Below, in pieces: positions 8,462 through 30,789 of a stretch of DNA of 32,434 nt. This DNA is from Deltaproteobacteria bacterium (GTDB lineage: Bacteria; Myxococcota; Myxococcia; Myxococcales; UBA5297): assembly GCA_016218885.1 (NCBI GenBank), contig JACRCT010001023.1, positions 1 through 32,434 of the forward strand, read 5' to 3'. The notes under the pieces are model-generated. The model saw only the letters and a program-made list of their open reading frames with translations, searched no databases and was not told the DNA's origin. A program made the translations under genes and the position numbers. How positions within the stretch are numbered: the stretch's first letter is position 1; the number at the start of each line of letters is the position of its first letter.

Positions 8462-9436
8462 CTAGGGGAGCCGACCCTCGATGCTCAGAACCATTCCTCC
8501 AGGAGCTGCGCCAACGCCCAGCTGGATGCTGGAAGACAAGGATTTGGGCTTGGCGCCTTCGGGCGAGCTCAGCGCATCTCTGATCAGGAAGATCGCGCTG
8601 GTGAGGACGACCGCTCCCCCGACACCGCCGAGCACATAGCCAGCGATCTGGAAGCGCTCGCCGTCGTCCCTGACCCCGGCAGGGTTTGCGAGCGGCCGAT
8701 CCCCACTCAGATAGTCGTATCGCCTCTTGGCTTCCACCCCGCACCAGATGCCTCCGGCGGCTGCGAGCGCCCCTGCGCCTGCAGTGACCCATGGCCAAAC
8801 GAGCCTGTCGGCTGGCTGATGCTGCTCGCTCTCTGACGCGGCGGGCGGCTGCACGGGGGGCGTCAGAGCCGGCAGCGCGGCCGGAGGAGGTTTGGCCGAT
8901 GGAGGAGGCAGCGAGAAGGTCACTTCAGTCGCATTGCGCGGCCCGAGCAATAGCTCTCGCTCCACGGAAAGGGCTCCGTCGGGAGCCCTTGCCTGGACCC
9001 GGTGTCGACCGATGGCGACCTTCACCTCGAGGGGCGTCTCGCCGAGAGCCTTGCCGTCCAGCCAGATGGTCGCGGCTCGGTCGCTGGTGACGCGCAGGTC
9101 GGCCTTGAGCCGCTGGCGGAGGCCGGTGAGCAAGCCCACCAGCACCGGAGGTACCCGGCTCGCGTCGAGCTCGGACTCCGGATCCTGCACCAAGGCCTCT
9201 TCCAGGGCGCCCTCGGCCTTGGCGAGGTCTCCATTGGCGTTGAAGCAACGGGCGCGCAACAAGTGGATGTTCGCCAGCTGGCTCCGATTCTTGGAGCCGG
9301 CCACGGCCCGGTCGAGCAACTGCAAGGCCTTGTCGAACTCTCCGTCACGGAAAGCAGCCTGCGCCGCGCGGAGCTCGCCAGCCGGCTTGGCGGCGGTCGA
9401 CAGCATGCCCAGAAGAATGACGAGAGATACGCTCAT
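8462..9436 (-). CDS. TPR/PEGA-domain membrane protein coupled to the Ser/Thr kinase
   Basis: This 324-aa protein starts with a short hydrophobic signal (residues 1-16). Helical TPR-like repeats follow (about 19-95, with FRDGEFDKALQLLDRAV and NGDLAKAEGALEEALVQDP). A PEGA domain (about 112-175) contains ATIWLDGKALGETPLEVKVA and IGRHRVQARA. After a Pro-rich linker there are two hydrophobic segments (about 217-235 and 263-287) and a short tail. PEGA domains are small beta modules found on envelope proteins and kinases. The start ATG overlaps the stop of the upstream kinase by four bases (ATGA), so translation is coupled and the two products probably act together at the membrane, perhaps as sensor and partner. 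Confidence 0.85.
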   Translation of the reverse strand: MSVSLVILLGMLSTAAKPAGELRAAQAAFRDGEFDKALQLLDRAVAGSKNRSQLANIHLLRARCFNANGDLAKAEGALEEALVQDPESELDASRVPPVLVGLLTGLRQRLKADLRVTSDRAATIWLDGKALGETPLEVKVAIGRHRVQARAPDGALSVERELLLGPRNATEVTFSLPPPSAKPPPAALPALTPPVQPPAASESEQHQPADRLVWPWVTAGAGALAAAGGIWCGVEAKRRYDYLSGDRPLANPAGVRDDGERFQIAGYVLGGVGGAVVLTSAIFLIRDALSSPEGAKPKSLSSSIQLGVGAAPGGMVLSIEGRLP

Positions 9437-11040
9437 GGCACCAGCGTGAGCTTGAGGGTCTTGGTCCTGTTGGGGACGACGTCCACTTTCTCCTCCAGGG
9501 CACGATATCCCGCCCGTTCAACCCGCACCACATGCTTGCCCGCGGGCAGGGTGACGACCAGAGGAGCTGGCCGGTCCAGGCGCCGTCCGTTCAGGAAGAC
9601 CATCGCCCAGGTGGGCTCGCCGCTCTCGAGCGTCACGATGCGTAGGCGACCTGGGCGAAGGGCCTCGGGCCGCGGGCTTTCACCCCGCTCCTTCTCCTCT
9701 CCCTGCGCAGGGGCGGCAGGCGTTGGCGTCGCCCGAAGCGGTGTCGGCGAGGAGGGACCGCCAGGCTCAGGCTCCACCGGGACGGACTCTTGCGCGTCCC
9801 CCGCATTCCCTGCGTCGAGGGGGTCCGCACCGTCCCCGGCGCCGGGGATGGGGGGCGGCAGCGCAGCAGGAGCTCCAGGGCCCGGCGCGGAGATGACGAC
9901 CGGTGGCAAGGGCGGCCCAACCGGAGCCGGTTCCTTCAGGAGGTGCGTGTGCCTGAGATAGACGGTGACGAGACCGCCGATGGCTACCGCGATCCCCGCG
10001 GCGATTCCCCATCGCCACCCCTTGCGCCGGGCCTCGCCCTCCACTTCGAGAACCACGAGACTCTCGGCCTGCCGAGTAATTCGTCCGGGAATGGTCGGGA
10101 CGGCGCGAGTAATGGCCTCCGCCAGCTCTGCCATCGACTGGAAACGTTGGGCGGGGTCCTTGGCGGTCGCCTTCTGCAAGGCCGCGTCGAACTCGTCCAG
10201 ACCTTCCACTCCGTTCTCGCCCAGCCGCGGCATCGGGTCCTGGATCTGGGCGAGGAGGATCTGCTCCACCGACATGCCTCGCCGCCGGAAGGTGTTACGC
10301 CCCACCAGCATCTCGAACCCGATGACCCCCAGCGAATAGATGTCGGCGCGGTGGTCGACCGGCCGTCCGCCGATCTGCTCGGGCGCCGAGTAGCTCGGAG
10401 TTCCGAGGAGGGTGCCGGGCTGCGTCCCGTTCAGCTCCGCCTCTCCCAGGAGCTTGGAGATCCCGAAGTCGAGAACGTGGGCGTGATAGCCGCGCAGCGC
10501 CTTGGTGAGAATGATGTTCTCGGGCTTCATGTCGCGGTGGACGACCGCGTGAGAATGGGCGTACCCGAGCACGTCGCACAGCTGCAGCAGGACGTCCCCG
10601 GTGACCGACGAGGAGAACGTGGCCTCCCGCGCCAAGGAGCGTCTCAGGCTTTCTCCCTCGACGTACTCCATGCAGATGAAGAGGTCCCCGCTCTCCTCGT
10701 CTCGTCCGAAATCGTGGAGCCGAACCGCGTGGGGATGCTGCACGCGCAGGTAGCATTGCGCCTCGTTGAAGAACCGGCGAACCACTTCCGGGTCGGCGGA
10801 GAGCTTGCGATCGATGAACTTGATCGCCACTCTCTGGCCGACGCCGATCTGCTCTGCCAGGTAGACGCTTGCCATCCCTCCTTCACCAATCTTGGAAGTG
10901 ATCCGGTAGCGCCCCGCGATGGTCTTGTGCAGATAGCGGTCGATGGGCTCAGGTTGCTTGGGCTGCTCAGGCGAGCAACGCGAGCACCGCTCCGCACCAG
11001 CAGGAAGCTCGGTTCCGCAGCTGTAGCAGGTGCATGTCAT
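9433..11040 (-). CDS. Membrane Ser/Thr protein kinase with zinc ribbon and PEGA domain
   Basis: This is a 535-aa Hanks-type kinase. The N-terminus has a CxxC...CxxC zinc-ribbon pattern (C5, C8, C19, C22). The kinase domain (about 44-310) has the glycine loop GEGGMASVY, catalytic lysine K74, HRDMKPEN (D170), DFG (D191) and the SAPEQ motif, so it should be active. A membrane helix lies at about 342-362. A Pro/Ala-rich extracytoplasmic linker and a C-terminal PEGA domain (about 465-535) follow. This is a sensor-kinase layout typical of myxobacteria. I chose ATG 11040 because the zinc ribbon starts there; the frame is open upstream to 11115 but that part overlaps the preceding ORF. It is four-base overlapped with the TPR-PEGA gene and lies 16 nt after a 98-aa ORF. 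Substrates unknown. Confidence 0.9.
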   Translation of the reverse strand: MTCTCYSCGTELPAGAERCSRCSPEQPKQPEPIDRYLHKTIAGRYRITSKIGEGGMASVYLAEQIGVGQRVAIKFIDRKLSADPEVVRRFFNEAQCYLRVQHPHAVRLHDFGRDEESGDLFICMEYVEGESLRRSLAREATFSSSVTGDVLLQLCDVLGYAHSHAVVHRDMKPENIILTKALRGYHAHVLDFGISKLLGEAELNGTQPGTLLGTPSYSAPEQIGGRPVDHRADIYSLGVIGFEMLVGRNTFRRRGMSVEQILLAQIQDPMPRLGENGVEGLDEFDAALQKATAKDPAQRFQSMAELAEAITRAVPTIPGRITRQAESLVVLEVEGEARRKGWRWGIAAGIAVAIGGLVTVYLRHTHLLKEPAPVGPPLPPVVISAPGPGAPAALPPPIPGAGDGADPLDAGNAGDAQESVPVEPEPGGPSSPTPLRATPTPAAPAQGEEKERGESPRPEALRPGRLRIVTLESGEPTWAMVFLNGRRLDRPAPLVVTLPAGKHVVRVERAGYRALEEKVDVVPNRTKTLKLTLVP

Positions 11041-11056
11041 CGCGGTGTCCGGGCCG

Positions 11057-11353
11057 TCACCAACGGATGCGGATCTCGTCGAGGCGAACGAGCGCGCCGG
11101 CAGACCACTCGCCACCGACCAGCAAGAGCTCGAACCTCGTGGCGAAGTCGGCGTATCTCTCCATCACCGGCAATTCGAACGAGCCGCTCGGCAGACCGGC
11201 CGTGCACTGCGCGATCTCCCCCAGCTGGAGGCTGCGACACGTCGTCGTCGAAGGGACTTGAAACTCGGTCCAACGGTGGAATTGGGTCGTGCTATGGCCC
11301 GCCTCGACCTCGGACCTCACGGTTCCCGTCACCAGCTCATAGGACCGGTGCAT
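11057..11353 (-). CDS. 98-aa ORF related to the C-terminus of the 12089-13072 lipoprotein
   Basis: The last 40 residues resemble those of the neighbouring lipoprotein at 12089-13072: both end in VR-x-DEI-x-IRW after a GG-x-W element, about 14 of 40 positions identical by eye. The DNA at the two stop codons is also alike. The ORF has no signal peptide and lacks the N-terminal two thirds of its relative. An in-frame TAA lies two codons before the ATG, fixing this start, and AGAGG sits 7 nt before it. It may be a truncated remnant of a duplicated gene or a small intact gene leading the kinase operon. I cannot decide from sequence alone. Confidence 0.5.
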   Translation of the reverse strand: MHRSYELVTGTVRSEVEAGHSTTQFHRWTEFQVPSTTTCRSLQLGEIAQCTAGLPSGSFELPVMERYADFATRFELLLVGGEWSAGALVRLDEIRIRW

Positions 11354-17233: not shown

Positions 17234-18757
17234 TTGAACCTGGGTCGCTACGAGCTCTGCGAGAAGCTGTCCACGGGAGGCATGGGAGAAGTCTTCCGCG
17301 CCCGCATCCACGGGGCCGAGGGGTTCAAGCGCGACGTCGCGATCAAGCGCATCCACCCGCACCTCTCCGCCAAGGCCCGGCATCGCGAGATGTTCGTGCG
17401 TGAGGCCAAGCTCCTGGCCACGCTGAGCCACCCGAACATCGTCCAGGTCTACGAGCTGGCCAGCGACGGCGCGGAGCTCTTCATCGTCATGCAGTACGTC
17501 CACGGGGCGGATCTCGCCCGCTTGATCCCCAGTGGCGTGGGTATGGCGCCCGAGCAGGTGGCGGTGATCGCCCGCGATGTCCTCGCCGGGCTCGAGTTCG
17601 CGCACGGCCGGTGCGACGAGACCGGCCAGCCGCTCGGGATAGTCCATCGCGACCTCACCCCCGACAACCTCCTCGTGGATCTGCTTGGGACTGCCAAGCT
17701 ATGCGACTTTGGCGTGGCCCGTGTAGCGGAGGGGACCGGCACCAAGGTCGGCGAGATTCGGGGCAAGCTCTCGTACATGGCGCCCGAGCAGGTGCTAGGG
17801 CTGCCCGCAGACCCGCGGACCGATCTCTTCGCGTTGGGGGCGGTTCTCTACGAGGCGCTGACGGGGAAACGGCTCTTGAGAGACCAGCTCCCCCCAGAGC
17901 AGATCAGCCTTCTGCGCGAGGTCGCAAACCCGCTCGAACGATGCCCCCTCGACTCGGTGCCACGGAAGCTCGCCGATGCGATCTGGCCGGCGCTGTGTTG
18001 GGACCCGAGCCGCCGCTATCCGAGCGCTGCCACCTTCCGCGAGGAGCTCGAGAAGTACGTCGTGACCTTCAACGCCTTCGAGGCCAGGGCGAGGTTGACC
18101 GAAAAGGTTCGCGAGGCGGTCCGACCGTTGCCGGGGCACGGCGAGCAGCCTCCACCGCAGCGCACCTCACGGATGAGCAGCGACAGCCTGCGACCAGGAC
18201 TGACGCTCGCTCCGGGCAAGGAAGGCGGCGCGGTGCCCATCTCGGGGACGAGTGACGTCGAGGAGATCTGCACCCAGCCCCTCTGCGTGGGGCCGCAGGA
18301 GTCCGGGTTCGCCGAAAAGTCGGGCGACGTCGAAGAGATCCGCACCCAGCCCCTCTGGATGGGGCCGCAGAAGTCCGGGTTGCCAGGGGGAACGAGCGAG
18401 GTCGAGGAGATCCGCACCCAGCCCCTCTGCGTAGGGCCGCAGGAGTCCCGGTCTCCAGGCGGGACGACCGAGGCCGAGGAGATTCCCACCCTGCTCCTCG
18501 CCGCTGGGTCGCGGGATTCCAGGTTCCCGGGGACTCGAGTCCCGAAATCGTCGAAGCGGCGATGGCTCGTCGGTGCAGCAGGGTTCCTCGCCGCCGCCTG
18601 CGCAGCCCTCGCCGCGCACTTCTGGCAGAACGGCCTGTCGCTCAACTCGACCGCTCCTCGAGCCGAGCCGGCGAGCCGGGCGGAGCCGCCCCCGCCCGGC
18701 GAGCGGGACGAAGGTGCGGCTTCCAGTCATCCGGAGCGACCACCACGAGCTCCCTGA
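17234..18757 (+). CDS. Membrane-anchored Ser/Thr protein kinase with Thr-x-x-Leu repeats
   Basis: This is a 507-aa Hanks-type kinase. The kinase domain (about 5-275) has K38 in VAIKRI, the glycine loop TGGMGEVF, HRDLTPDN (D140, N145), DFG (D158) and APEQ. The HRD loop has Thr instead of the usual Lys after HRDL, a variant seen in other myxobacterial kinases. Between the kinase and the membrane helix (about 441-463) lie four 24-residue repeats (341-436), each with one Thr (347, 371, 395, 419) followed by Leu at +3. The C-terminus is a short Pro/Glu-rich extracytoplasmic tail. The start is TTG 17234, after AGGAAG. A GTGCTATAGGAT motif about 70 nt upstream may be its promoter. The FHA/sigma-54 activator gene follows after 193 nt. 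Confidence 0.9.
   Translation: MNLGRYELCEKLSTGGMGEVFRARIHGAEGFKRDVAIKRIHPHLSAKARHREMFVREAKLLATLSHPNIVQVYELASDGAELFIVMQYVHGADLARLIPSGVGMAPEQVAVIARDVLAGLEFAHGRCDETGQPLGIVHRDLTPDNLLVDLLGTAKLCDFGVARVAEGTGTKVGEIRGKLSYMAPEQVLGLPADPRTDLFALGAVLYEALTGKRLLRDQLPPEQISLLREVANPLERCPLDSVPRKLADAIWPALCWDPSRRYPSAATFREELEKYVVTFNAFEARARLTEKVREAVRPLPGHGEQPPPQRTSRMSSDSLRPGLTLAPGKEGGAVPISGTSDVEEICTQPLCVGPQESGFAEKSGDVEEIRTQPLWMGPQKSGLPGGTSEVEEIRTQPLCVGPQESRSPGGTTEAEEIPTLLLAAGSRDSRFPGTRVPKSSKRRWLVGAAGFLAAACAALAAHFWQNGLSLNSTAPRAEPASRAEPPPPGERDEGAASSHPERPPRAP
18254..18541 (+). repeat. Four 72-nt in-frame repeats in the kinase juxtamembrane region
   Basis: Units begin at 18254, 18326, 18398 and 18470, exactly 72 nt apart. 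The protein consensus has (D/E)-x-EEI-x-T-Q-P-L near its start. Three copies are close; the fourth is diverged (EEIPTLLL) but keeps Thr and Leu in register. They lie on the cytoplasmic side, between the catalytic domain and the membrane helix. Confidence 0.95.
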
Positions 18758-18950: not shown

Positions 18951-20297
18951 ATGCCGCCTGAGCCCACCGGTTTGCCAGCCCCGACTGACATCATTGGCGC
19001 AGACTCGAGCCGCCTTCCTGGCGTTCACCTCCGGGTCGTCGAAGGAGAGCGAGAAGACGTTGGACGCTCGGTCTTCGCCAAGGCCGGGACCCTGCGCGTC
19101 GGCAAGGACCCGAGCTGCGATCTCATGCTGCACGACTCGACCGTCTCCCGGCAGCACGTGGAGCTGGCCATCCTCGAGGACGGCATCCGCGTTCGCGACC
19201 TGGGGAGCACCAACGGCACCTTCTATCTGGGCCAGCGCCTGGTGGAGGCGATCGTCCGCCCGGGCGCGCGGATCACGCTTGGCCGTACGTCCCTCGACTT
19301 GCTGCCGGGCAATGAAGGGGGCCAGGCCCGGCTGGAGTCAGAGAGGGAGAGCTATGGAGCGCTCATCGGCTCCAGCCAGCCGATGCGCCGGCTCTATGCG
19401 CAGCTCGAGCGGCTGGAAGGCAGCGAGGCCTCAGTTCTCATCAGCGGCGAGAGCGGGACGGGCAAGGAGCTCGCAGCCCGGGCGATCCACGAGGGCAGCG
19501 CCCGGAAGGGCCGGCCGCTGGTCGTCGTCGACTGCGGGAACCTGCAGAAGGAGCTCGTCGGCTCGGCGCTGTTCGGCCACCACAAGGGCGCCTTCACCGG
19601 AGCGATCGCCGACCAGATGGGCGCCTTCGAGGCGGCCCATGGCGGCACCATCTTCCTCGACGAGATAGGCGAGCTCCCCGCGGACATGCAACCGCGGCTC
19701 CTGCGGGTCCTGGAGACCGGCGAGATCACGCGCATCGGAGAGACGCGCCCGATTCGAGTCGATGTGCGGGTCCTGGCCGCCACCAACCGTGACCTGTTCC
19801 AGGAGTCCAGCGCGGGTCGCTTCCGGGTCGATCTCTACTATCGCCTGGCGGTCATCCATCTGACCCTGCCGCCCCTGAGGGAGCGGCGCGAGGACATCCC
19901 GGCGATCATCGAGCGCATGGTGCGCCAGGCTGGAGGTGACCCGAAGGCCTTCCCGCAGGCCGCGCGCGAGTTCATGCTGCGCTACGACTGGCTGGGCAAC
20001 GCGCGGGAGCTGCGCAACGCGGTGCAGCGGATCCTGGTTCTGGGTACGAGCGGTCTGGAAGGGTTGGAGCAGGAGCGCGCCGAGCCGCAGGCGGGTCCGG
20101 GGCCGAACCTGACCCTGCCGTTTCACGAAGCCAAGCGCCAGGTCATCGAGGACTTCGAGTCCGCCTACCTGAAGAACCTCCTGGAGAAGGCGCAAGGCAA
20201 CATCTCGAGAGCGGCCCGCTCGGCGGGGATCGATCGCAAGCACCTGCGCGACTTGCTGCGGCTGCGCAAGCTCTACGTCGGCAAGGATGACGACTAG
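18951..20297 (+). CDS. FHA-domain sigma-54-dependent transcription activator
   Basis: This 448-aa protein has an FHA domain (about 25-118) with the phosphothreonine-binding residues R49-x-G51, S66-R67-x-H69 and N88 in STNGT. It then has a sigma-54-interacting AAA+ domain (about 138-365) and a C-terminal Fis-type helix-turn-helix (about 400-440, QGNISRAARSAGIDRKHLRD). The AAA+ domain has Walker A GESGTGKE (166-173), GAFTGA (213-218) for sigma-54 contact and Walker B IFLDE (234-238). It should activate sigma-54 promoters, with the FHA domain replacing the usual receiver, so activity depends on Ser/Thr phosphorylation. The kinase immediately upstream is the natural candidate partner. Target promoters are not visible in this window. 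Confidence 0.95.
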   Translation: MPPEPTGLPAPTDIIGADSSRLPGVHLRVVEGEREDVGRSVFAKAGTLRVGKDPSCDLMLHDSTVSRQHVELAILEDGIRVRDLGSTNGTFYLGQRLVEAIVRPGARITLGRTSLDLLPGNEGGQARLESERESYGALIGSSQPMRRLYAQLERLEGSEASVLISGESGTGKELAARAIHEGSARKGRPLVVVDCGNLQKELVGSALFGHHKGAFTGAIADQMGAFEAAHGGTIFLDEIGELPADMQPRLLRVLETGEITRIGETRPIRVDVRVLAATNRDLFQESSAGRFRVDLYYRLAVIHLTLPPLRERREDIPAIIERMVRQAGGDPKAFPQAAREFMLRYDWLGNARELRNAVQRILVLGTSGLEGLEQERAEPQAGPGPNLTLPFHEAKRQVIEDFESAYLKNLLEKAQGNISRAARSAGIDRKHLRDLLRLRKLYVGKDDD

Positions 20298-23947: not shown

Positions 23948-26374
23948 CTACTTGCGAGCTGCTCTCATCGACTCTTCGATCCAGCCGCGCAGCGGCGCGA
24001 CCCGGGTATAGATCCCGCCCTCCCCGCAGGCGGCGCGTGTTGCATTCACCGGGCGGGAGGTGATGGCCACCAGCCGCCATGGACACTCCCCTTGGCCTGC
24101 GACGAACCGCTCGTACACGCCCCCGCCACTATCGCCTCGACACGTGTCCGACCCGCCGGGAGATCGGACGATCTCCTCGTAGGCCGGGATGCAGCCGGTG
24201 GTCTGGGAAGATCGCTCCGTGCAGGGCTCTTCCTGGCCATCGAGGACGAGCACTCGCCGCACCCCGAACCCCCTGGTCCCCATCCGGTCCTGTGCCCCGT
24301 ACCCCACGTGCACCAGCCCGACGCGCCCGCCGGCGTCGCCCGCCGAGTCCATCCCGAGGCGCAGCTCGCTCGGCTCCCCCGGCACCGTGTCCAGCAGCGG
24401 CCGGTCGAGCTTGAGCAGCGCGGCATCGACGTGAGGATCAGGGTGCCGAATCTGGCGCGACACGGCCACGGTCCGCGACAGGTCGGTGATGCCGCTGCCG
24501 ACGCCGACGTGGGAGGCGGGCAGGCAGTGCGCAGCGGTGAGCACTGTATGGGCGTTGAGGGCGACACCGGAGCACTTCCAGCGTGGCCCCGCTTCGCCCA
24601 CGACCACCGCGAATCCGTCCACGGGCAGGACCGGGGTCCGGCAGGGACGGTCGCAGGAGAGCAGGGCCGTCTCGGGGGTCGGCGCCTGTTGCACGCTTCC
24701 ATTCGGGCAGGGCTGCGTTCCTCCGTCGTTCCAATTGGGGAACCGGGTCTCGTAGCAGTCCACCGCGCGCCTGATGCAGAGCGCCAGCGGGTCGATGCAG
24801 CGGTTCGCCGCAACATTCGCCAGGGATGGCGACTCCTTCTCGAGAAAGTCGCGGACCTCCTGCTCGCTCGCGAAGACTCGAGCTTCTCGAGGCAGGACGA
24901 TGGCGTCTGAAGCTTGTGCCGGAAGCCGGCACAGCACCTTCTGGTGAGAGTGGAGCTGCGCCGAGAGCGAGGCCGCCGGGGCACTCGAGAACCCGATGGG
25001 CTCGGTGAAGGGCAGGTCTGACAGCGGCTTGCCCGTTCCACGGCAGCAGCCGATCGAGATCTCGCGGAACCCGCAAGGCCGGCCAGCGGTCGTCTCCAAG
25101 ACGGCGAAGGCCTTCTTGAAGAGCGGCTCGCTCGTGAAGGGGCACTGGGGTGCTTCATCGAAGCCGAGGTCAGCGGCGGGGCAGGCGGGGCCGGCATCGG
25201 GGGCGGCGCTTTCGAAGGCGAACCAGGAAGTCTCGCGGCAAGCCAGCTTCCCATCGGAAAGCTCCAGCGGGACCCAGCAGCCCTTCATGGAGCCAGGGAC
25301 TCCGGGAATCACCTCGAGCCGATACCAGGGCTTGAAGCAATGCAGTGGCTTCCAGGGATTCCCGTCCTCGCAGTGCCCCTTACGATCGAAGCCGGCGATG
25401 CGGCCGATGGCCGGCGCCCCCGCCTTAACGTCGATCACATCGATCGGCAGAGAGAGATCTTGGAGGAGGTGGAGGAGAAAAGCTCCGGTGTCGGCGAGGG
25501 CGACTCGTCGCCTCCGCACCTGGCACGCCTTCTCATCCGGAGGGGGATCAGCGAGGTCGCTGAGCTTCTGGAGCGCATCGAGGACGCCTCGCGCCGCGTC
25601 GTCCTTGAGCTTGTAGTCCACCTGGATGATTCCGGCCGCGGTGCTGCGCACTCGCGGGTCTTGCGTCGCGGCCTTCTTGATCTTGCAGGCAACCGAATCG
25701 ACTTCCCAGGGACACAGCTTGGCAGCCTGGGTGTACACCGCTTCAAGGTGCAGCTTGGTGTGTAGGGACTTGGGCGTGGGGGTGATCGGCGGCGCGGGAT
25801 CGTCCACGCCGTCCGAGAAGATGAGGAGGATCCGCTCCGATACGGTCGCCGCGGCCTGCTTGGAGATGCGATCTTCCTCGTTCTTCAGCCATTGCAGGAG
25901 AGGCGTGCCAGCCATGTCTGGCGCGATGCAGGGCTCCTTGTCACACCTGTACGTTGCAGGGGTGGAGATCGTCTGCCGGGCGAGGTGGCGACGGACCTCC
26001 GAGAGCCAATCGCTCAGCTCCTGCGATGAGTTGAGGGTGCTCTCGCAAGGGACGCAGCGAGCCGAGGGTGCGGGTTTGATCCCCGCGCGGCAGCAAAGCC
26101 GGGTGTCGAGCGGTGGGAGCATCTCGAGGCGCATCCGGAGCGGATGATGGCCCTGGCGCTGCAACGACGCAGCTAGGCTTTGCCAAGGGTCGGGGTCCGG
26201 GCCCTTGGCCTTATCCTCGAAGAACTGAAAGACCTTGGGCCAGTGGCGCTTCATGGTCCCGGACCGGTCGATTGCGATCGTGTACTCGATCACCTGCTGC
26301 GGTTCGGCGAAGCACTCGGAGCGTCCAGCGCCTACTACGACCGTGATGGAAAGGGCGGCGGTCCAGAACCTCAT
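23948..26374 (-). CDS. Exported VWA domain fused to trypsin-like serine protease
   Basis: This 808-aa protein has a signal peptide (about 1-23) and then a von Willebrand A-type domain. The metal-site motif is DRSGT (D36, S38, T40), and a later strand-turn has ILLIFSDGVDD. A Cys-rich middle region follows (about 240-575). The C-terminal 228 residues are an S1-family protease with the triad H616 (LTAAHC), D650 (HVDAALLKL) and S749 (CRGDSGGG). Asp743, six residues before the catalytic Ser, predicts cleavage after Arg or Lys. I chose ATG 26374, where the signal begins; upstream frame is not protein-like. The combination suggests a secreted, metal-dependent adhesive protease, perhaps needing activation. 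It leads a two-gene operon with the 904-aa protein. Confidence 0.88.
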   Translation of the reverse strand: MRFWTAALSITVVVGAGRSECFAEPQQVIEYTIAIDRSGTMKRHWPKVFQFFEDKAKGPDPDPWQSLAASLQRQGHHPLRMRLEMLPPLDTRLCCRAGIKPAPSARCVPCESTLNSSQELSDWLSEVRRHLARQTISTPATYRCDKEPCIAPDMAGTPLLQWLKNEEDRISKQAAATVSERILLIFSDGVDDPAPPITPTPKSLHTKLHLEAVYTQAAKLCPWEVDSVACKIKKAATQDPRVRSTAAGIIQVDYKLKDDAARGVLDALQKLSDLADPPPDEKACQVRRRRVALADTGAFLLHLLQDLSLPIDVIDVKAGAPAIGRIAGFDRKGHCEDGNPWKPLHCFKPWYRLEVIPGVPGSMKGCWVPLELSDGKLACRETSWFAFESAAPDAGPACPAADLGFDEAPQCPFTSEPLFKKAFAVLETTAGRPCGFREISIGCCRGTGKPLSDLPFTEPIGFSSAPAASLSAQLHSHQKVLCRLPAQASDAIVLPREARVFASEQEVRDFLEKESPSLANVAANRCIDPLALCIRRAVDCYETRFPNWNDGGTQPCPNGSVQQAPTPETALLSCDRPCRTPVLPVDGFAVVVGEAGPRWKCSGVALNAHTVLTAAHCLPASHVGVGSGITDLSRTVAVSRQIRHPDPHVDAALLKLDRPLLDTVPGEPSELRLGMDSAGDAGGRVGLVHVGYGAQDRMGTRGFGVRRVLVLDGQEEPCTERSSQTTGCIPAYEEIVRSPGGSDTCRGDSGGGVYERFVAGQGECPWRLVAITSRPVNATRAACGEGGIYTRVAPLRGWIEESMRAARK

Positions 26375-26404
26375 CGAACCCCCTATTGGCGCCGGAATGC
26401 GGGC

Positions 26405-26432
26405 ACTATCGCCTACCGGGCTCAAAAGACAA
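26405..26432 (-). promoter_or_regulatory. Candidate -35/-10 promoter for the VWA-protease operon
   Basis: On the reverse strand TTGTCT (26432-26427) and GATAGT (26410-26405) are separated by 16 nt, each matching four of six sigma-70 consensus bases. They lie in a locally AT-richer patch, 31 nt before the ATG. Confidence 0.35.
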
Positions 26433-26603
26433 ACAGGATTGGCGTGCGTACACTTTTGGCGCAGGCGCCCCCGTCCTGTTCGGACGGAGGCGCAATGAAG
26501 GGCCGCCGCGATCAACTGCGAGCGGAACGACGCATGCCGGCCTCCAACCAGCCCGTACCCCGGTTCTCGAGATGAGCCCCAAGGTCACCCTCCGCCGGTG
26601 AGT

Positions 26604-26622: not shown

Positions 26623-28596
26623 ATGCCCTTCACCTTCCGAACGCTCACGCGCGATCCGGGCTGTGCGGCACGGAGCGGCGTGGTCGAGACCTCTCACGGC
26701 CGCATCGAGACCCCCGCCTTCATGCCGGTGGGAACGCGGGGGACCGTCACCACCCTGACCCCCGATGATCTGCGCGCCCTCGACGCGCAGATCATCCTGG
26801 GCAACACCTACCACCTGCTGCTGCGCCCCGGTCCCGAGACCATGCGGCACTTCGGGGGCCTGCACCGCTTCATGGCGTGGGACCGGCCCATCCTCACCGA
26901 TTCGGGCGGCTTCCAGATCTTCTCGCTCCCCGCGGACCGGACGCTCGACGAAGAGGGTGCGCGATTCAAGAGCTACGTCGACTGCCGCTATCACCACCTC
27001 ACCCCTGAGTCGTCCATCGCCATGCAGGAGGCGATCGGCTCCGACGTGATGATGGTGCTCGACATCTGCGTGCCCTCCACCGCCGAGCCAGGGGAGATCC
27101 GCTTGGCGATGGAGCGCACGCACCGCTGGGCGCTGCGCAGCCTCGTCGCGCGCCGCAGCTCGGAGCAGGCGCTCTTCGCCATCGTCCAGGGCGGGCTCTG
27201 CCCCGAGTGGCGCGCGGAGTCGGCGGCCTTCCTCAGCCAGCACCCGTTCGACGGCTTCGCCATCGGCGGGCTGGCGGTGGGCGACACGCGCTCGGAGCGC
27301 TTCGACGTGGTGGGGAGCACCGCGGCTCGGCTGCCCGCCGACCGGCCGCGCTACCTCATGGGCGTGGGCACGCCGCCCGACATCCTGGAGGGCATCGCGC
27401 AAGGCGTGGACATGTTCGACTGCGTCCTTCCCAGCACGCTCGCCTGGCAGGGCATCGCCTTCACCTCGACCGGGCGCGTGAAGCTGCTGCGCACCGAGCA
27501 CCGGCTCTCCGACGCCCCCCTCGACGCGGCCTGCAGCTGTCCCGCCTGCACGGCTCACCCGCGCGGCTACCTCCACCACCTCTTCAAGTGCAAAGAGACC
27601 CTGGGGCACCGCCTGCTCTCCATCCACAATCTGCACCATTACCTGTCGCTGATGCGCGCCGCGCGGCAGGCGATCGAGCAGGGCCGGTTCTCCGCCTTCC
27701 AGCGCCAGACCCTCGCCGCGATCGATCGGCACGAGCACGACGCGACCGCTCGTCCTCCGGGACGCACCTGCCGCGCGCCGGCAACGGCCCGATTCGAGAT
27801 CATCACCACCGAGAGCGGCGCCGCCTCCATCCGCGACCGGGAAGCGGGCGAGGTGATGCACCCCACCATCGGAGCCGCGCAGGAGTCGCGGGAGCTGTAC
27901 GTCGTCCAGTCCCGGCTCTTCGAGCGCTTGAGCCAGGAGACCGCAAAGCCTCTGGTCGTCTTCGACGTGGGGCTCGGAGCGGCCGGGAACGCGTTGGCGG
28001 CCATGCGGGCGGCCCGTGAGCTGGCGCAGCGACGTCCGCTGGAGCTGGTCAGCTTCGAGCGGGAGCTGGGCGCGCTGCGGCTCGCAGCCTCCGACGAAGG
28101 AGCGGCGCGCCTGGGCTGGACCGAAGCGGATCGTCTGGCGACGGGGAGCCTGCTGAAGACCGGGCGTCACGAGGAGCCGGGCATCGTCTGGCGCCTCGTG
28201 CACGGGGACATCGAGCGCACGCTCCCCGCCCTGGGGTCGCTCGCCCACGTGGTGTTCTGGGACCCGTTCTCGCCCAAGGCGAACCCGGGCCTGTGGAGCG
28301 CGGGGATCTTCCCGGCGCTGCGCGCCACCTGCGCCCCGGACGCGACGGTGTTCACCTACTCCAACGCGACCTCGACGCGCGGGGCCCTGCTCCTGGCGGG
28401 GTTCTTCGTGGGCCACGGCCTGCCGTCTGGAGCCAAGGAGGAGACCACGACGGCGGCGGTGCGCCTTCAGGACCTCGCCCGGCCGCTGGACCGGCGCTGG
28501 CTGGGGAGGCTCGAGCGATCGACCGTTCCCTTCCCTGCCGATGCGCCGCCAGACGCGCTGCAGGCGGTCCGGGGCCATCCCCAGTTCGCGGAGTGA
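26623..28596 (+). CDS. tgt: tRNA-guanine transglycosylase fused to MnmC-like methyltransferase domain
   Basis: This 657-aa protein has a TGT domain (about 1-370) and a second domain (about 390-657). TGT exchanges guanine 34 of GUN-anticodon tRNAs for a queuosine precursor. It keeps D93 in TDSGGF, D147 before Cys149, the nucleophile D266 in MFDCVLP, and the zinc ligands C304, C306, C309, H335. The canonical TRxxRxG after the nucleophile is replaced by STLAWQG, and the Glu of GGLAVGE is Asp221. The second domain resembles the methyltransferase half of MnmC, which finishes the U34 modification. It has FDVGLGAAGN (446-456), acidic E479 in VSFERE, and FWDPFSPKANPGLW (545-558, D547). Its tail has a Lys/Glu-rich loop typical of that family. 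Both relatives act on the wobble position. ATG 26623 is where the TGT fold starts. Confidence 0.9.
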   Translation: MPFTFRTLTRDPGCAARSGVVETSHGRIETPAFMPVGTRGTVTTLTPDDLRALDAQIILGNTYHLLLRPGPETMRHFGGLHRFMAWDRPILTDSGGFQIFSLPADRTLDEEGARFKSYVDCRYHHLTPESSIAMQEAIGSDVMMVLDICVPSTAEPGEIRLAMERTHRWALRSLVARRSSEQALFAIVQGGLCPEWRAESAAFLSQHPFDGFAIGGLAVGDTRSERFDVVGSTAARLPADRPRYLMGVGTPPDILEGIAQGVDMFDCVLPSTLAWQGIAFTSTGRVKLLRTEHRLSDAPLDAACSCPACTAHPRGYLHHLFKCKETLGHRLLSIHNLHHYLSLMRAARQAIEQGRFSAFQRQTLAAIDRHEHDATARPPGRTCRAPATARFEIITTESGAASIRDREAGEVMHPTIGAAQESRELYVVQSRLFERLSQETAKPLVVFDVGLGAAGNALAAMRAARELAQRRPLELVSFERELGALRLAASDEGAARLGWTEADRLATGSLLKTGRHEEPGIVWRLVHGDIERTLPALGSLAHVVFWDPFSPKANPGLWSAGIFPALRATCAPDATVFTYSNATSTRGALLLAGFFVGHGLPSGAKEETTTAAVRLQDLARPLDRRWLGRLERSTVPFPADAPPDALQAVRGHPQFAE

Positions 28597-28616: not shown

Positions 28617-28770
28617 CGTGAAGCGAGGGGGCGAGAGCATTCCGAGGGGCGCCAGCCTGGAGCCCCGTTCCGTCCAAGACGCTGCCCTGTAGGCTATCCT
28701 CCAGGGCCGAGGCGGTTTGGCCGCGAGGGGCGCTCGAGAGGCAAGGCTGCACAAAGGAAAAAGGAATGGC

Positions 28771-30789
28771 ATGACGACAGACGGCAAGAAAGGCGCAGGC
28801 CGGCCCATCGGAGAGCTGGAGGCGGCCCGGGCGCGGATCGCCGAGCTGACCCGGACCGTCGAGAGCTACCGGCGCCTGGTGGATGGCGCGGCGAAGTGCC
28901 GCACCTTCCTCGAAGCGGCGCCCGACCCCCTCTTCGCCCTGACGCCCGAGGGCCGCATCTCCTTTGCCACCCGGGCCCTCGCCGAGGCGTTCGGCAAGCC
29001 GGACGAGGACATCGTCGGGAAGAGCCTCTGGGATGTCTTCCCCAAGGAAGAGGCCGACAGGCGCTTCGCGCTCCTGTGCCAGGTCATTCGCTCGGGCAAG
29101 GAGACCACCCTCGAGGAGCGAGTCCCTCGGGCCGACGGCGACCGGTACTACCAGACCGCGATCAAGCCCCTCAAGGACCCGGCCGGGAACATGGTCTCGG
29201 CGATCTGCGCCTCCAGGGACATCACCGCACCCAAGCAGGCTGATGAGCGCCTGGTGAAGCTCTCGCAGCTGGTGCCCGGCGTCATCTACCAATACCGGCT
29301 CTTCCCCGACGGGCGCTCCTGCTTTCCCTATTCCAGCTCGGGGATGAACGACATCTACGAGGTCACCCCGGAGGAGGTGCGCGAGGACGCCACGCCGGTA
29401 TTCGGGCGGCTGCACCCTGACGAGCTGGCGAGCACCACGGCGGCCATCCACGAGTCGGCCCGCACCCTGGCGCTGTTCCACTGGGAGTTCCGGGTCGTGT
29501 TGCCCCGGCAGGGCCTGCGCTGGCGCGAGTGCAGCGCCACGCCAGAGCGCCTCTCCGACGGCGGCACGCTGTGGCACGGCATCATCACCGACATCAGCGA
29601 CCGCAAGCGGGCCGAGGAGGAGAAGGCCAGGCTCGAAGGCCAGCTCCAGCAATCCCAGCGGATGGAGTCGGTCGGTCGCCTGGCGGGCGGCGTGGCCCAC
29701 GACTTCAACAACATGCTGGGGGCCATCCTCGGGCACGCGGAGCTGGCGATGGAGCAGGTGGCCCCGGAGCTACCGCTCTACGACGACCTGGTCGAGATCC
29801 AGAAGGCGGCCCGGCGCTCAGCCGACCTGACCCGCCAGCTCCTGGCCTTCGCCCGCAAGCAGACCGTCGCGCCCAAGGTGCTCGACCTGAACATGACCGT
29901 GGATGGGATGCTCAAGATGCTGCAGCGGCTCATCGGCGAGGACATCCACCTGTCGTGGAAGCCCGATGCGCAGCTGTGGCCGGTCAAGGTGGACCCCTCG
30001 CAGATCGACCAGATCCTGGCCAACCTCTGCGTCAACGCCCGTGACGCCATCGCCGACGTCGGCGAGATCACCATCGAGACCGGCAACAGCACCTTCGACG
30101 CGGAATACTGCTCCGTGCACGCCGACGTCGTGCCCGGCGAGTACGTGCGACTCGCCGTCAGCGATACCGGCACCGGAATGGACCGAGAGACGCTCTCGCA
30201 TCTCTTCGAGCCCTTCTTCACGACCAAGGGCGTGGGAGAAGGCACCGGCCTCGGTCTGGCGACCGTGTACGGCGCCGTGAAGCAGAACAACGGCTTCGTC
30301 CACGTCGACAGCGAGCCGGGCCGGGGCACGACCTTCACGATCTACCTCCCGCGGAATTCGGCCGAATGCCGCGATGCTGAGGCCGCGGTCGCCACCGAAC
30401 CCACCCTGCGCGGTCACGAGACGGTCCTGGTGGTGGAGGACGAGCCGGCCATCCTCAGCCTTGCCAAGCGGATGCTCGGCCGCCAGGGCTACGGCGTGCT
30501 GGCGGCAGGTAGTCCGAGCGAGGCCCTAAGGCTGGCAGGCGAGTACCAGGGCGCGATCCACCTGCTGATGACCGACGTGGTCATGCCCGGGATGAACGGC
30601 CGAGACCTGGCGAAGAGCCTGCTGGTCCTGCACCCGAGCCTCAAGTGCCTGTTCATGTCGGGCTACACCGCCAACGTCATCGCTCACCACGGCGTGCTGG
30701 GCGACAAGGTCAGCTTCATCGAGAAGCCCTTCTCCATGAGCGAGCTGGCCGCCAAGGTTCGCGCCGCGCTCGACTCCGGGAGCTCTTGA
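28771..30789 (+). CDS. Hybrid histidine kinase with two PAS domains and C-terminal receiver
   Basis: This 672-aa cytoplasmic protein starts with a helical segment (about 12-42). Two PAS sensor domains follow (about 44-155 and 160-280), the second of PAC/PAS type with a RKRAEEEKARLEG helix. The dimerisation domain contains phosphoacceptor H310 in GGVAHDFNNML, followed by an ATPase domain with N-box N422, DTGTGM (G1, D465) and GTGLGL (G2, 491-496). A receiver (about 550-668) has D557, phosphoacceptor D602 and K652. No membrane segment, so it senses an internal signal. The output is not encoded nearby. ATG 28771 is preceded by AAGGAATGGC; an upstream open frame is not protein-like. Phosphorelay through the receiver is likely. 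Confidence 0.93.
   Translation: MTTDGKKGAGRPIGELEAARARIAELTRTVESYRRLVDGAAKCRTFLEAAPDPLFALTPEGRISFATRALAEAFGKPDEDIVGKSLWDVFPKEEADRRFALLCQVIRSGKETTLEERVPRADGDRYYQTAIKPLKDPAGNMVSAICASRDITAPKQADERLVKLSQLVPGVIYQYRLFPDGRSCFPYSSSGMNDIYEVTPEEVREDATPVFGRLHPDELASTTAAIHESARTLALFHWEFRVVLPRQGLRWRECSATPERLSDGGTLWHGIITDISDRKRAEEEKARLEGQLQQSQRMESVGRLAGGVAHDFNNMLGAILGHAELAMEQVAPELPLYDDLVEIQKAARRSADLTRQLLAFARKQTVAPKVLDLNMTVDGMLKMLQRLIGEDIHLSWKPDAQLWPVKVDPSQIDQILANLCVNARDAIADVGEITIETGNSTFDAEYCSVHADVVPGEYVRLAVSDTGTGMDRETLSHLFEPFFTTKGVGEGTGLGLATVYGAVKQNNGFVHVDSEPGRGTTFTIYLPRNSAECRDAEAAVATEPTLRGHETVLVVEDEPAILSLAKRMLGRQGYGVLAAGSPSEALRLAGEYQGAIHLLMTDVVMPGMNGRDLAKSLLVLHPSLKCLFMSGYTANVIAHHGVLGDKVSFIEKPFSMSELAAKVRAALDSGSS

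Follow-up and report, generated by a model that had tools for sequence, protein, structure and literature searches.

The 32,434 nucleotides of DNA analysed here (the window) contain a single open frame in which a TGT is joined to an MnmC2-like methyltransferase. Judged from sequence comparison, the fused TGT is a paralogue, here called TGT2, that is distinct from the queuosine TGT. TGT2 and the methyltransferase probably form a dedicated 7-deazaguanine modification unit that works independently of MnmEG. We tentatively propose that the gene product is a two-step RNA-modifying enzyme, in which insertion of preQ1 by TGT2 would be followed by methylation. The gene and the features of its TGT part are as follows.

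26623..28596 (+): TGT2-MnmC2-like fusion gene, 657 amino acids plus stop, single open frame
26662..27720 (+): TGT domain, residues 14-366; TIGR00430 436.8 bits, cut-off 306.75
26899..26901 (+): Asp93, equivalent to catalytic Asp102 of Z. mobilis TGT; 43 of 43 TGT2 and 100 of 100 canonical TGTs
27418..27420 (+): Asp266, equivalent to the Z. mobilis nucleophile Asp280; 43 of 43 TGT2 and 100 of 100 canonical TGTs
27433..27453 (+): STLAWQG where canonical TGTs have TRxxRNG; loss of both Arg286 and Arg289 (Z. mobilis numbering), gain of an invariant Gln
27532..27627 (+): zinc site C304, C306, C309, H335, kept in 43 of 43 TGT2
27730..27786 (+): flexible linker, residues 370-388, disordered in the model with pLDDT below 50

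The fusion is real and not an artefact. As the initial annotation described, the frame runs unbroken across both domains, from ATG 26623 to the stop at 28596; there is neither a stop or frameshift between the domains nor an unrelated methyltransferase fold in the second one, the two outcomes it had named as speaking against the fusion. ATG 26623 was taken as start codon in preference to GTG 26602, which is also in frame, because relatives start there. Codon third-position GC is 0.85-1.0 on both sides of the junction between TGT and methyltransferase. Pfam assigns TGT to residues 14-366 (481 bits, cut-off 26.3) and Methyltransf_30 to residues 521-612 (63 bits, cut-off 22). An AlphaFold2 model of the full protein, built with 14 sequences, reaches pLDDT 84.8 and pTM 0.60 and contains two confident domains on either side of the linker, whose mutual placement is uncertain. 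A genome search for the same fusion returned in-frame TGT2-methyltransferase fusions with a stop-free linker in many further genomes as well as in isolates, for example Anaeromyxobacter soli, which argues against an assembly accident. A contaminating contig is likewise an unlikely source, as its composition matches the rest of the bin and not Anaeromyxobacter-type DNA.

The TGT domain is complete, as had been annotated, and its model fits the Z. mobilis TGT structures with a TM of ~0.94 normalised by target length. All 43 TGT2 sequences conserve the preQ1-pocket residues D102, D156, Q203, G230, V233, M260 and D280, and Cys158 is present in 42 of them. Queuine is said to be excluded in bacterial TGT by Val233 (PMC6165067). 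Across 100 distinct canonical TGTs we find 75 invariant alignment columns, 62 of which are retained in at least 90% of TGT2. Only three columns are wholly lost, namely K52, R286 and R289 (Z. mobilis numbering), which occur in 100 of 100 canonical TGTs and in 0 of 43 TGT2. In TGT2, PTTLAWQG or PTKMAQQG replaces the canonical PTRxxRNG and the new Gln is invariant; half of the TGT2 sequences are without E339. We take Arg286 and Arg289 to be the readers of the UGU anticodon context in the Z. mobilis complex, and K52 and E339 to be residues of the Z. mobilis homodimer interface. Arg286 is located beside the ribose-34/phosphate-35 pockets of TGT (PMC5395182). With the loss of Arg286 and Arg289, recognition of UGU may be altered rather than abolished, and the pattern of exchanges suggests a new RNA target for TGT2.

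In the tree, TGT2, which comprises the fused and the paired TGTs, is a single clade set apart from 27 canonical sequences drawn from many phyla (support 100/99). The window's own genome (G000; 86.7% complete, 5.9% contamination) carries a second, canonical TGT at C1106:3221-4273 that directly adjoins QueA at C1106:4344-5366, so that the fused TGT is not the queuosine TGT, a distinction the initial annotation had overlooked. TGT2 has the fold, the catalytic Asp pair, the zinc site and the preQ1 pocket in common with bacterial Tgt (TIGR00430, PF01702). In contrast to Tgt, it belongs to a clade of its own, lacks the invariant K52, R286 and R289, coexists with a canonical Tgt and is fused or linked to a methyltransferase. 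TGT2-like genes without the fused methyltransferase, both 63% identical to the window copy, are found at G152:C244:20615-21730 and G017:C72:5280-6389, with open frames of 387 and 382 amino acids, respectively; G152 also has a second, fused TGT2.

TGT2 and the methyltransferase are inherited as a unit. Counted over 195 Myxococcota genomes with relatedness ignored, both are present in 114, only one in 3 and neither in 78, and some of the 3 discordant genomes are fragmented. Nearly all genomes with the methyltransferase have two TGTs, while most others among the 195 have one. The two genes are fused or adjacent in nearly all inspected copies. In-frame fusion is found in the Anaeromyxobacter-type family and several other lineages, separate genes side by side in a large part of the Myxococcus-type family (both family names are inferred from matching records L003 and L076), and in two genera the genes lie 13-20 kb apart, for example at 222023 and 236009 on G075:C8 and at 924607 and 904482 on G095:C1. 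The tree requires about six changes between the fused and the split state, which indicates repeated fusion or fission. The neighbour analysis found no third conserved gene next to the pair. Among the matches listed in the genome-contig scan the pair does not occur outside Myxococcota, and viral contigs, phage and plasmid records gave just ordinary TGTs or weak MnmC matches and no pair. In the open-access papers searched, we found no TGT-MnmC fusion, no N-methyl preQ1 nucleoside and no enzyme of such kind.

The features of the methyltransferase part are listed below.

27787..28593 (+): MnmC2-like SAM methyltransferase domain, residues 389-657; profile match to PDB 3vyw, E 2.5e-34
27850..27861 (+): EVMH, within a GEVMHP motif that is conserved in nearly all paired copies and aligns with GEPYHS of Aquifex MnmC2
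27961..27990 (+): SAM-binding loop FDVGLGAAGN (sequence motif), from residue 447
28057..28059 (+): Glu479, counterpart in the alignment of the SAM-binding Glu101 in MnmC
28255..28296 (+): FWDPFSPKANPGLW, from residue 545; its Asp547 aligns with Asp178 of MnmC, the proposed catalytic base

From alignment and model, the second domain is assigned as an MnmC2-fold methyltransferase in which the catalytic Asp and the SAM-binding Glu are retained, in line with its annotation as MnmC-like. Modelled separately with 29 relatives, it reaches pLDDT 93.6, and in a Foldseek search against PDB Aquifex MnmC2 is the top match (E 1e-16) and the best nine matches are all MnmC2/MnmC chains. In MnmC, Asp178 is the proposed activator of the nm5U amine, and Glu101 contacts the SAM ribose (PMC3648344). 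The fusion shares fold and catalytic residues with MnmC2/DUF752 proteins, represented by Aquifex 3vyw and the methylase domain of E. coli MnmC. In contrast to these, it scores 84.1 bits with NF033855 (MnmC2), below the cut-off of 136 (other paired copies: 58-94 bits), and its methylase has a TGT, not the FAD domain MnmC1, as fusion partner. MnmC1 is missing from the fusion protein, and only 1 of 45 genomes has a match above the MnmC1 cut-off. Bifunctional MnmC likewise combines an MnmC2-fold methylase with a second RNA-modifying enzyme, but there the partner is an FAD oxidase and not a transglycosylase. GEVMHP was considered as a unique change of the pocket, an idea weakened by GEPYHS at the same place in Aquifex MnmC2.

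MnmC2 acts on nm5U34 and converts CH2-NH2 to CH2-NH-CH3 (nm5U to mnm5U). Here a methylase of CH2-NH2 groups is coupled to a transglycosylase that has a preQ1 pocket, which suggests the aminomethyl group of preQ1 as the target; conservation of the catalytic Asp favours an amine substrate. In the proposed mechanism, TGT2 would exchange guanine for preQ1 at an RNA site outside the usual U33-G34-U35 context; methylation of the aminomethyl nitrogen of preQ1 by the methyltransferase would follow and give a 7-(methylamino)methyl-7-deazaguanine nucleotide. We name N-methyl-preQ1 as the specific product with some reserve. Since 39 of the 40 pair-bearing genomes tested have both QueF and QueA, a supply of preQ1 is to be expected. 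The exception is G011 (92% complete), which has the pair and in which neither QueF nor QueA was detected, so that salvage or another base may serve there.

The known activity of bacterial TGT is a single reaction at a single site. Phage DNA is reported to contain a methylaminomethyl-7-deazaguanine. From a second TGT in which invariant residues are exchanged and which is coupled to an amine methylase, we predict a modified nucleoside not yet described. With more caution than for the product itself, we suggest that 7-(methylamino)methyl-7-deazaguanosine could be a new RNA modification, widely distributed among myxobacteria in addition to ordinary queuosine synthesis; its makers would be a TGT paralogue directed to a new site and a methylase derived from MnmC2. 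The predicted nucleoside would occur in Myxococcus and Anaeromyxobacter, which are culturable and genetically tractable.

Among the alternatives, TGT2 might aid the canonical TGT as a heterodimer of the QTRT1/QTRT2 type, with the methyltransferase decorating queuosine or another part of the Q-tRNA. Eukaryotic QTRT1/QTRT2 resemble TGT/TGT2 as two TGT paralogues per organism, the presumed dimer-interface residues K52 and E339 are lost in all and in half of TGT2, respectively, and nearly all pair-bearing genomes have QueA. We regard this arrangement as unlikely, as TGT and QueA occur in many relatives that lack the pair, and TGT2 keeps both catalytic Asp residues whereas QTRT2 is without the catalytic residues (PMC6165067).

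Somewhat less probable is that the methyltransferase is an ordinary MnmC2 with nm5U34 as its substrate, which came to be fused to TGT merely through the shared position 34. The MnmC2 fold and catalytic residues agree with it. MnmC2 requires nm5U, which is made by MnmEG. MnmE and MnmG are near-universal in bacteria as a rule. We searched for MnmG and MnmE separately, with positive controls, in 40 pair-bearing genomes. Both are missing from 12, including the complete one-contig genomes G031, G032, G033, G036 and G042. No nm5U substrate is expected in these 12 genomes, and nm5U from MnmEG cannot be what the methyltransferase requires there. In all Anaeromyxobacter-type genomes tested, complete ones too, neither MnmE nor MnmG is detectable; the genomes without them are G031, G032, G033, G036, G040, G042, G045, G046, G053 and G054 of family f3 and the tested f2 genomes. 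An MnmC-like annotation thus does not imply mnm5U, given the many such genomes without MnmEG. MnmE occurs in 28 of the 40, the window's own genome among them, and neither MnmM nor another MnmC2 was found in the examined MnmE-bearing pair genomes, the window's own included, so that an MnmC2 role on nm5U is possible there. However, MnmE and the pair show no association (28/40 versus 17/29, p 0.44), the fusion falls short of the MnmC2 cut-off while genes above it exist in Myxococcota without TGT2 (G171, G182, G187 and G190), and the strict tie to TGT2 is left unexplained. In the window's own genome there are two MnmG matches, G000:C1102:3575-5407 and G000:C761:19387-20229, one complete and one cut at the contig end beside MnmE, which represent a duplicate or bin contamination.

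These gene distributions also bear on the two readings of the fusion offered in the initial annotation. A single protein serving both wobble bases is disfavoured by the separate canonical G34 TGT in the same genome, by the three invariant residues that the fused TGT lacks and by the 12 genomes without MnmE and MnmG; of the two, a methylation step connected with queuosine synthesis fits better.

About as improbable as an ordinary MnmC2 is methylation of the free preQ1 base, with TGT2 specialised for inserting the methylated base. Such an order would suit the many genomes in which the two genes are split, and N-substituted preQ1 such as azido-propyl-preQ1 is accepted by TGTs (PMC9561289). Against it, tRNA is the substrate of MnmC2 relatives and the preQ1 pocket of TGT2 shows no apparent change in its residues. 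Least probable is a target other than tRNA, another RNA or DNA: a change of target to DNA is known for one TGT paralogue (PMC6884629) and TGT2 has lost invariant residues of the tRNA-acting TGTs, but TGT2 stays close to tRNA TGTs and above the TIGR00430 cut-off, and the neighbour analysis found no recurrent restriction or DNA-modification gene beside the pair. That paralogue type, DpdA (DNA 7-deazaguanine transglycosylase), is similar to TGT2 in its presumed new nucleic-acid target; it is much more diverged and often located within a DNA-modification gene cluster, whereas no such cluster surrounds TGT2. We favour preQ1 insertion by TGT2 at a new site followed by N-methylation, at the tentative level stated above.

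Two observations on the queuosine pathway stand apart from the pair. A second, diverged QueA-family gene (115-192 bits versus ~400 for the main copy) accompanies the normal QueA in G060, G061, G065, G066, G077, G087, G088, G119, G120, G128, G129, G156, G023, G024 and G182 and is not tied to the pair. G103, a Myxococcus-type genome of 98% completeness, has QueF, and both TGT and QueA are absent.

In the window, the fusion gene is flanked by a gene for a large protein with a C-terminal trypsin-like domain (23948-26515, minus strand) and a PAS hybrid histidine kinase gene (28717-30789, plus strand), neither of which is a recurrent neighbour of the pair. Further upstream, two Ser/Thr protein kinases, one with PEGA, and an FHA-sigma-54 activator are encoded at 9433-11115 (minus strand), 17234-18757 (plus strand) and 18951-20297 (plus strand), a typical myxobacterial signalling set.
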